Shown here piece after piece: positions 13,046 to 16,127 of a stretch of DNA of 37,114 nucleotides. Below the pieces are notes generated by a model. That model did not search any database. It had not been told where the DNA came from and saw only the letters and a program-made list of their open reading frames with translations. This stretch comes from Crocinitomicaceae bacterium (GTDB taxonomy: Bacteria > Bacteroidota > Bacteroidia > Flavobacteriales_D > Sanyastnellaceae). Within the stretch, counting starts at the first letter, position 1; every line of letters starts with the position of its first letter. The DNA is taken from positions 1 through 37,114 of the forward strand of contig NZGF01000078.1 of assembly GCA_002690915.1 (NCBI GenBank). The letters are read 5' to 3'. The translations under genes were made by a program, and so were the position numbers.

Positions 13046-14974
13046 ATGCGCGTTTCAATAGGGGGTGATCATGCTGGACCTGCCTTGAAAAAGGTCCTTA
13101 CCGCACACTTGGTATCTCAAGGTATCGAAGTTATCAATCGTGGAACAGATTCGTTAGAAAGTGTGGATTATCCAGATCATGCACATGCAGTGTCAACGGA
13201 TGTAGCGAAGGGGTTGGTTGACTTTGGAATCTTAATCTGTGGTTCTGCCAATGGAGTAGCTATGACTGCAAATAAACACCAACAGGTACGCGCAGGATTG
13301 GCATGGAATAAGGAAGTGGCTAAACTGGTGAAACAACATAACAATGCAAATGTCTTATGCATTCCAGCACGGTTTGTCTCACAGGAGGAAGGGCTGGAAA
13401 TTTTACAAGCTTACATGGAGGAGGAGTTTGAAGGAGGACGTCACGAACGTCGGGTTGGCAAGATTGCTTGTGTTTTAGTTACGTGCATGATGGCTGTGAT
13501 GCCATCTCTTAAATTATTAGCCCAAGTGGTAGATCCAGAGCCCTTTGCATCCACCATTTTGGCTGAGGACTTGGAGAATCATTTAACAGTCTTCGCAAGT
13601 GACGCGTTTGAAGGACGAGAGACCGGGGAACGTGGTGCTGAAAAAGCAGCTGATTACATCGCAAGTCATTTCAACAGCATAGGAATTGCTCCGTATGATG
13701 GGTCTACATATTACCAACCGGTGGGTTTGATTCGTTCGCAGGTGAAGGGTGGTCGAGCATCTGTGAGTGGAGACTCGCTTGTGTTTTTGGATGACTTTTT
13801 GTTTTACCCAGGGTTGAAGGTGGAAACGATGGAATCTTTATCAATGGTTGCAGTTAGCGGCGTTTCAGCAATTGCCAACGCTAATGTATCAGGAAAAGCA
13901 GTCGTGGTTTCAGGAGCAGATGAATTGAATGATGTGCGAGAGGCCGCAAATGCGAACGGTGCGGAAGCGGTGATTTTGGTAAGTGATGACATCAGTACGC
14001 TTCGAAGCCGTATGAAGCCGTGGTTAATGCGCAAGTCGTTGCGTTTGGACCGAGAACAACCGAAGGAACGCGAAGGAACCCGTATACCGACATTCATGGT
14101 AGACGCGGCTGCAACGGACTCGTGGTGGACCAATTCGGATGTAAAATCATGGAAGAAATGGAGCAAGAAAATTTCCAAAGGGAGAGCCCTTGGTGCGGTA
14201 GAGTTGGTGTCGGCTTCGTGGAATTTTGCGCTGGACCGATCGGAAGAATCGGTCATTGGAGACAATGTTCTAGGCTACATCCCAGGCTCTGATTCTTTGT
14301 TACGAGAAGAATTGGTCATTATTACTTCCCATTATGACCATGTAGGTATTATTGATGGTGAAATCCACAATGGTGCAGATGACGACGGTTCGGGCACCGT
14401 CACCGTACTTGAGTTGGCAGAAGCCTTCCAAAAAGCTGTCGAGGCAGGTAAGGGGCCACGGCGCAGTGTTTTATTAATGACTGTTGTGGGTGAGGAAAAA
14501 GGGTTGCTTGGAAGTGAGTGGTATGCAGATCACCCCATTTGGCCGTTGGAAGAAACGGTAGCGAACCTAAACATCGACATGATCGGTCGTGTAGATGAAT
14601 TTCATCCGGATGACGATCGGTACGTATACCTCATTGGTTCAGACAAGCTCTCTTCGGAGTTGCATGAAATCAGTGAGACGGCGAATGAAAAGTACACGAA
14701 TTTAGCTTTGGATTATACGTTTAATGCACCGGACGACCCCAATCGGTTTTACTACCGGTCGGACCACTACAACTTTGCGAAGAACAACATCCCGGTCATC
14801 TTCTACTTTAGCGGTGTGCACGAGGACTACCACCGTCCAGGAGACGACCCAGAGAAGATCCACTACAGCAAGACGGCAGAAATTGGCCGGCTCGTGTTCT
14901 ATACGGCATGGCAGTTAGCGAATCAATCGAGCCGAATTGAAGTGAATAGGCTCAACGATTTTCCAACGAAGTAG
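13046..14974 (+). CDS. RpiB sugar-phosphate isomerase fused in frame to exported M28 peptidase
   Basis: One uninterrupted frame of 642 residues (ATG at 13046). Residues 1-140 are a complete RpiB: start MRVSIGGDHAG, active-site Cys65 in LICGSANGVAM, His98, and the family's closing motif FEGGRHERRV. RpiB interconverts ribose-5-phosphate and ribulose-5-phosphate in the cytosol. Without a stop the frame continues into a hydrophobic stretch ending in LKLLAQ, which looks like a signal peptide (about 140-160). It then continues into an M28 zinc peptidase with a PA-type insert and ligands His429, Asp445, Glu483/Glu484, Asp511 and His596 in SHYDHVG, NGADDDGSG, GEEKGLLGS, NIDMIGR and DYHRPGD. Either the rpiB stop codon was lost, or the peptidase starts inside rpiB, for example at ATG 13415. 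The 3' end overlaps the opposing gene by 23 bp. Confidence 0.85.
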   Translation: MRVSIGGDHAGPALKKVLTAHLVSQGIEVINRGTDSLESVDYPDHAHAVSTDVAKGLVDFGILICGSANGVAMTANKHQQVRAGLAWNKEVAKLVKQHNNANVLCIPARFVSQEEGLEILQAYMEEEFEGGRHERRVGKIACVLVTCMMAVMPSLKLLAQVVDPEPFASTILAEDLENHLTVFASDAFEGRETGERGAEKAADYIASHFNSIGIAPYDGSTYYQPVGLIRSQVKGGRASVSGDSLVFLDDFLFYPGLKVETMESLSMVAVSGVSAIANANVSGKAVVVSGADELNDVREAANANGAEAVILVSDDISTLRSRMKPWLMRKSLRLDREQPKEREGTRIPTFMVDAAATDSWWTNSDVKSWKKWSKKISKGRALGAVELVSASWNFALDRSEESVIGDNVLGYIPGSDSLLREELVIITSHYDHVGIIDGEIHNGADDDGSGTVTVLELAEAFQKAVEAGKGPRRSVLLMTVVGEEKGLLGSEWYADHPIWPLEETVANLNIDMIGRVDEFHPDDDRYVYLIGSDKLSSELHEISETANEKYTNLALDYTFNAPDDPNRFYYRSDHYNFAKNNIPVIFYFSGVHEDYHRPGDDPEKIHYSKTAEIGRLVFYTAWQLANQSSRIEVNRLNDFPTK

Positions 14975-16127
14975 ACGGTGTTGTGTGCCTTTGGAAAGCC
15001 GCACGTTCTTCTTTGTAAGGCGCCCCGGTGGCGGGACCATTGAAGCCAGAATGAATATGAACGGTTCCGTCGTGTTGGATGAATAATGTGGTCGGAAAAC
15101 TGATGACGCGATCTAGAAACGGAAAGGCAGCAGCCGCGACTTTTTTATTTGCCTTTCCCCCCAGGACTACATCCCAATCCATTCCCATTTCAGCCTGAAA
15201 TGTTTTTAATCGAGCGTACGCTAGGGCCACGGAGTCGGGACGTTCAAAAGCAACGGATAGCTGGTTGACGTTTTCCATGTCAAGGGAGGTAAGCAACCGC
15301 ACCTCATCCATGCAGTTGGGGCACCACGTGCCTAAAACATCCACAACAGTGATGTGATTTGGTTCAGGAATCAGAGACCGTTGGGAGGGTTTGCCCCCAG
15401 GGTCGATGAACCGAACGATTAGTGAATCCACGGGCGGAGTCATTCGCTTTAAACGCACACTGGATTCCCAAGGAGTTGCGGGTGCTCCAAACCAAGAGGT
15501 ATGGTAGTGGTTACCACTGTAGAAATTGCCGCTTGTCCACTGACCCTCGGAATAGGTTGCGTTGAAGTAGAACAGATGAGCGCCATCAAACGTTTGAAGG
15601 GCTAACGAGGTTCCGTCAAAAGAACCAGACAAGTAACGGTAATCACCAGTGGTGGTGCGCATGGTGCCTTCGATGCTTGTGCCGCTATCGCGCAGGTCAA
15701 GCTGTGCGCTTGCCGCACCGTCTTGGCCGCTGTTTTGGCCGCCGAACCAAACATCCCAATGTCCGGCTATGGAAATATTGGGAGGCGATGTTGACGATGT
15801 GCGGAGCTCGAAAGGAATACGGTAGGAACCGGATTTGGTTTTAGGGCGAAGGGAATCAGTCCAGTATCCGGAGCGGCCATCCCTTAAGGTCATGGTGCCG
15901 TTGAATACAGGTATTTTGTAGGTCGAGTTTGTAAGCCTATCGAGCGGAATGGCCTCCACCCCATTGTAAACAACCCAAGTTGTATCACTCACAGAGACAG
16001 GAAAGCTGGCTTGAACCGAATCATTCAAAGTAAACACCAACCTATCCAATGAAGTGACCGGCACAGAGGGCTCTCCACACGCGACAAAAACTCCAATTAC
16101 GAGGACAAGGAAGAGTCTATTGATCAA
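14952..16127 (-). CDS. TlpA-like thioredoxin-fold lipoprotein
   Basis: 391 residues, starting with TTG (no suitable ATG). Lipobox VFVAC with Cys17, so it is an envelope lipoprotein. An N-terminal beta-rich domain of about 230 residues precedes a thioredoxin-fold domain with GTWCPNCMDE (Cys269 and Cys272) and the cis-Pro motif ISFPTTLFI. TlpA/ResA-type proteins reduce or isomerise disulfides in the periplasm. The TTGA start overlaps the stop of the ALDH gene, so translation is coupled, although a functional link between the two is not obvious. Its 3' end overlaps the peptidase gene on the other strand. Confidence 0.88.
   Translation of the reverse strand: MINRLFLVLVIGVFVACGEPSVPVTSLDRLVFTLNDSVQASFPVSVSDTTWVVYNGVEAIPLDRLTNSTYKIPVFNGTMTLRDGRSGYWTDSLRPKTKSGSYRIPFELRTSSTSPPNISIAGHWDVWFGGQNSGQDGAASAQLDLRDSGTSIEGTMRTTTGDYRYLSGSFDGTSLALQTFDGAHLFYFNATYSEGQWTSGNFYSGNHYHTSWFGAPATPWESSVRLKRMTPPVDSLIVRFIDPGGKPSQRSLIPEPNHITVVDVLGTWCPNCMDEVRLLTSLDMENVNQLSVAFERPDSVALAYARLKTFQAEMGMDWDVVLGGKANKKVAAAAFPFLDRVISFPTTLFIQHDGTVHIHSGFNGPATGAPYKEERAAFQRHTTPSTSLENR

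Follow-up and report, generated by a model that had tools for sequence, protein, structure and literature searches.

A predicted single chain joins ribose-5-phosphate isomerase B to an M28 peptidase through an internal signal-like sequence in a family of Bacteroidota

FbcH, the cytochrome b/c1 precursor of Bradyrhizobium, is one gene that yields two proteins: the second is exported by means of an internal signal sequence, and signal peptidase separates the two. Here we describe a fusion of ribose-5-phosphate isomerase B (RpiB) and an M28-family peptidase that, as we read it, would resemble FbcH in consisting of one gene, carrying an internal signal and being split by signal peptidase. The two cases differ in what is joined: the FbcH products share one membrane complex, whereas RpiB-M28 combines a cytosolic sugar enzyme with an exported hydrolase to which it has no known link. 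The RpiB half is like known RpiB (PF02502; PDB 1o1x, 6mu0) in its full domain and active-site residues, but its C-terminus is not free and runs straight into a signal sequence. Likewise, the peptidase half has its fold and M28 active-site motifs in common with secreted M28 aminopeptidases (2ek8; B. subtilis 6hc6; P. aeruginosa PaAP) and differs from them in having the RpiB fusion in place of an N-terminal signal peptide. A more distant likeness is with iRhom2, presented in the part of PMC7618786 drawn on here as a non-canonical substrate of the signal peptidase complex; according to the same part of that source, iRhom2 differs in being eukaryotic and in feeding an ER-to-nucleus signalling pathway. 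In the open-access literature searched, we found no paper on an RpiB-M28 fusion.

The window (the whole stretch of DNA that was analysed, 37,114 nucleotides) belongs to a genome of 2.39 Mb in 84 contigs, 84.9% complete. The ORF as listed starts at an upstream TTG (13025); homology to RpiB fits instead the ATG given in Table 1. The junction reads FEGGRHERRV-GK-IACVLVTCMMAVMPSLKLLA followed by Q, and the end of the RpiB domain abuts the hydrophobic stretch without a linker. The preliminary description had reported that RpiB reads without a stop into a signal-like stretch ending LLA-Q and on into a full M28 peptidase, and we recovered the same ORF. The same fusion, which that description had suggested looking for in relatives, was found in 43 of the 114 genomes of the window's family, in the Flavobacteriales (44 genes), and relatives thus do not always carry two genes. 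On the opposite strand, a further ORF (14952-16127, minus strand) overlaps the final 23 bases of the fused gene; it has no match in Pfam, although on visual inspection its C-terminal part resembles thioredoxin.

Table 1. Features of the fused gene, in window coordinates.
Feature	Position	Strand	Details
Fused rpiB-M28 ORF	13046..14974	+	642 aa; ATG 13046, TAG 14972-14974; no internal stop
RpiB domain, aa 1-141	13046..13468	+	PF02502, NF004051, PDB 1o1x E 6.8e-34
Codon 124 ATG, proposed internal start	13415..13417	+	ATG in 13/44 fused genes only
RHERRVGK, RpiB C-terminal tail, aa 132-139	13439..13462	+	R132, H133, R136, K139 invariant in 43
Signal core and end, IACVLVTCMMAVMPSLKLLA, aa 140-159	13463..13522	+	Modelled as part of helix 132-159
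Predicted signal peptidase I site, A159/Q160	13520..13525	+	Small-Q site in 44/44 fused genes
Mature M28-family metallopeptidase (predicted exported), aa 160-642	13523..14971	+	PF04389; PA-like stretch aa 277-358

Both halves look complete. PF02502 (LacAB_rpiB) matches aa 3-140 over its full length (E 3.9e-49, 166.6 bits against a cut-off of 24.7), NCBIfam NF004051 scores above its cut-off and the equivalog TIGR01120 (rpiB) reaches 134.8, just below its cut-off of 138.65; the half also aligns with PDB 1o1x. PF04389 (Peptidase_M28) matches aa 407-620 (E 8.3e-38, 130.5 bits against 21.3), the PA-domain match scores just under the Pfam cut-off, and a fold search returned the M28 aminopeptidases 2ek8 and 6hc6 as the closest solved folds. 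Across 43 aligned fused proteins, D8, H9, C65, H98, R109, R132 and R136 are invariant in the RpiB half; among these we take C65 and H98 to be the catalytic Cys and His, and R109, R132 and R136 the phosphate-binding Arg residues. In the M28 half H429, D445-D447, E483, E484 and D511 are invariant and H596 is found in at least 90% of the 43, one row (L117) stopping before it at a contig end; these are presumably the zinc ligands and the catalytic Glu. The earlier view that both halves keep their catalytic residues therefore holds across the aligned fused proteins, with nearly all catalytic and ligand residues invariant. Automatic annotation may label such genes plain RpiB or plain M28 and thereby misplace one half.

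The RpiB half is probably also the only ribose-5-phosphate isomerase of the cell, because RpiA was found in 0 of the 114 family genomes by a search that was positive in 8 of 14 control genomes. RpiB itself was found in 102 genomes; it lies at a single place in 99 of them, and at two places in G087, G104 and G113; in G087 the two places are one gene broken across two contigs. Taken together, the genome content suggests that the RpiB half should have to function in the cytosol. The second RpiB-family match of G104, a genome that also carries the fusion, is L186 (G104:C39:5743-6156), a 387-aa open frame that may be a different enzyme or contamination. Neither RpiB nor RpiA was found in eight genomes (G050, G051, G052, G101, G102, G108, G109 and G110; three of g1 and five of g21, g numbers being our labels for genera), which are 63-91% complete, as a result of assembly gaps or of real loss.

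We then examined the stretch that joins the two halves. Judged by simple rules, it has three traits of a Sec signal peptide, namely a positive n-region, a hydrophobic core and a small residue before the cut, and a signal peptidase I (PF10502) is encoded in the window's genome. It does not stand at the protein N-terminus, since 139 in-frame residues precede it; to be N-terminal, it would need translation to begin within the gene. Counting from the final Lys of the RpiB tail (hereafter K), 44/44 fused genes have a small residue 13-21 positions downstream with Gln directly after it; this small residue is Ala in 32, Gly in 8, Ser in 3 and Thr in 1; G042 has two such sites, of which the first was counted. 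As a background, segments of equal length in the M28 half (n = 17) hold a small-Q pair in 17% of cases on average, with one segment reaching 31/44, and those in RpiB in 1-5 of 42-44. We also examined 67 separate rpiB-M28 pairs, eight of them from outside the family, whose peptidases carry a small-Q site in 64/67 when searched over a looser range. As a side observation, the signal peptides of several separate peptidases (L125, L135, L149, L153, L150, L123, L141 and L170, from g12, g13, g8 and g9) share an FHxxx stretch (FHVNH, FHGEQ, FHVDH) just upstream of the cleavage site.

The positive charge before the core appears to come from RpiB. Separate peptidases whose Met could be placed have Lys or Arg among their first seven residues in 63/66, whereas 43/44 fused genes have neither from the end of the RpiB tail up to the cleavage site. 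The window's own copy is the one exception, with K156 inside its signal, a point against the reading we favour below. The RHERRVGK tail would thus double as the signal's positive n-region; the tail motif is also found where rpiB and M28 are separate genes. An AlphaFold2 model (mean pLDDT 85.1, pTM 0.67) contains both domains, linked by the single helix listed in Table 1, with block pLDDT of 56-76. RpiB is an oligomer and the model was computed as a monomer, so the geometry of the tail is suggestive at most.

From these junctions we consider it fairly likely that the gene is translated as a single polypeptide whose internal N-in signal is cut by signal peptidase I, giving cytosolic RpiB and a periplasmic M28 peptidase. 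In relatives, the rpiB gene and an exported-M28 gene adjoin, and the stop of rpiB often shares bases with an ATG (ATGA); a net frame change has brought the two into one frame. The Lys/Arg n-region of the peptidase is gone, as is its own Met in most fused genes, and the RpiB tail GGRHxRRVxK now immediately precedes the hydrophobic core. In the present-day protein, RpiB would fold in the cytosol, its positive tail would keep the following core N-in/C-out in SecYEG, and the peptidase would cross the membrane until signal peptidase I cleaves at the small-Q site. The cut would leave RpiB in the cytosol with a membrane-embedded tail, which might later be trimmed, and would release M28 into the periplasm, one start codon thus yielding both enzymes 1:1. 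Such a gene would be a clear case of an inside-bound and an export-bound protein sharing one chain in cells that apparently have no second copy of the inside enzyme, and it offers a test of the extent to which a folded domain can precede a signal sequence.

The preliminary description had left open whether the chain stays whole as an N-in/C-out anchored protein or is separated at LLA-Q. Both options fit, and the polyprotein is favoured over the anchor. An uncleaved type II membrane protein would place RpiB inside and M28 outside, and its permanent anchor would tether an enzyme of the pentose-phosphate pathway to the membrane. At mostly 17-20 residues from K to the predicted site, the core is also of sufficient length for such an anchor; its best-15-residue mean hydropathy is 1.75-2.77, and the modelled helix is unbroken. 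However, an anchor has no need of the small residue-Gln pair kept in every fused gene, and a site of the same kind precedes nearly all separate peptidases. For these reasons we regard a permanent anchor as unlikely.

An internal start inside rpiB, for which ATG 13415 had been put forward, would instead make M28 separately, with a signal peptide bearing a longer n-region. An ATG occurs somewhere between K-45 and K+8 in 30/44 fused genes, so some species could start internally, and in g18 it stands at K-20 in 10/10 genes and at K+5, the site of the old start, in 8/10. The position nevertheless varies by clade: codon 124 (K-15) is ATG in the minority given in Table 1, 17/44 fused genes have no ATG from K-45 to K+4, and four (G100, G105, G106 and G111) have no ATG, GTG or TTG between K-65 and K+8, their nearest upstream in-frame start being the ATG of K-66, which falls within the RpiB fold. 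These four genes, and the loss of the peptidase's own charged n-region, make an internal start distinctly improbable, and the proposed ATG 13415 in particular is not supported.

We further scanned synonymous sites, comparing codon identity in each segment with each pair's own background so that pair distance is controlled. Relative to expectation, identity in segments across the junction ranges over 0.87-1.01 for g1 and over 0.75-1.07 for g18, where the minimum lies at the signal; it is thus not raised, which counts against a start inside rpiB. This is a weak test, since the true start of g18 is barely raised (1.09, against maxima of 1.26-1.35 near codon 580) and, although the true start is the top segment in g1 (1.25), others approach it (up to 1.21 at codons 15, 27, 28 and 39, and 1.19 at codons 561-575). 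A constraint peak at codon 144, seen in a scan uncorrected for pair distance, was gone once the pair background was used.

An error of assembly or sequencing, through a lost stop or a frameshift, has practically no probability left as the source of the fusion, for although the named fused loci inspected, like the genome of the window, are draft or metagenome-assembled, the frame is intact with coherent junctions in 43 genomes of one family, the 42 other aligned proteins being 48-84% identical to the window's, and this number of genomes in effect refutes it.

Within the family, the fused genomes fall in six genera (19 in g1, 1 in g7, 2 in g14, 10 in g18, 2 in g20 and 9 in g21). Among named genomes, the closest loci to the window's, L034-L036 and L039, are 71-84% identical to it. 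In 59 of the 114 family genomes rpiB and M28 adjoin, but in two frames or separated by a stop; the other 12 were left unscored, RpiB not having been found, and in G007 and G092 among them the peptidase lies at the extreme start of a contig. Beyond the family, the matches listed included no full-length one free of stops, either in a sample of the order (355 genomes, family included) or in one of the class (396 genomes). Twenty more regions, most of them picked for long open frames, comprised 16 with rpiB and 4 without, none fused, and in all 16 the frame stops directly past the RpiB tail. A set of 80 loci from GTDB genomes held 11 fused genes, 28 separate neighbours and 41 without rpiB in the DNA examined. 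Albibacterium, Sphingobacterium, Portibacter and Chitinophagaceae are among the separate neighbours, a distribution by which the rpiB-M28 pair is judged to be old.

The separate pairs suggest how the two frames could have merged. The last base and stop of rpiB form ATGA, a 4-nt overlap, in 29/59 separate family pairs, the typical DNA where inspected being AAA ATT GCC TGC TCA TGA, with the ATG in the peptidase frame. Counted by open frames, the peptidase begins no later than the last base of the rpiB stop codon in 58/59 pairs, the exception being G039. In the portion of PMC10666635 considered here, an overlap of 4 or 1 nt is the commonest spacing of same-strand gene pairs, and the translationally coupled overlapping pairs described there have the same arrangement as many of our relatives. 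They differ in being separate genes, enriched for subunits of heteromers in that portion of the source, whereas here fusion replaces coupling. The fused genes carry KIAC, or a close variant, at the old overlap, followed by the hydrophobic core with the frames in register, and 17/44 have an ATG within K-10 to K+8. Because relatives preserve successive states, namely two genes, a fusion that retains an ATG where the old start lay, and a fusion from which that start has disappeared, the path from an overlap to a compartment-spanning fusion can be read, apparently twice.

This count of events comes from phylogenies. The tree of RpiB plus M28 (110 rows) has two state changes, and a single fused clade is rejected (AU p 0.0012), in a quick analysis in which long branches were flagged, the fused row G024 among them. 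In the likewise quick 68-row trees, a single fused clade has p 0.0065 with RpiB alone, p 0.034 with M28 alone and p 5.6e-8 with both under a mixture model. Since RpiB and M28 each on their own reject a single fused clade, the fusion probably arose twice, two independent events being the simplest reading. In each of the three 68-row trees a single branch sets genus g20 (14 separate and 2 fused rows) apart from the remaining rows; transfer of a fused gene into g20 is unsupported, both of its fused copies grouping with the other rows of that genus whether RpiB or M28 is used alone. A single fusion followed by a re-split in g20 costs equally two changes and was set aside as unlikely, because the stop/ATG overlap of the outgroups would have had to re-form.

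In small genomes the fusion may be near-neutral; with two apparent origins and long retention, we lean slightly towards a merger that is more than chance. We raise tentatively, as a possible if somewhat doubtful extension, that this is a convergent bacterial polyprotein, split by signal peptidase, in which the only Rpi retains the used signal as a membrane tail at its C-terminus, its active-site Arg residues serve also as topology signal, and fixed 1:1 output and membrane placement are selected. One genome, G113 (g21), holds two fused genes (C23:6100-8052 and C130:22113-24092; L011 and L151), one of which groups inside g1 in the tree, probably reflecting mixed bins.
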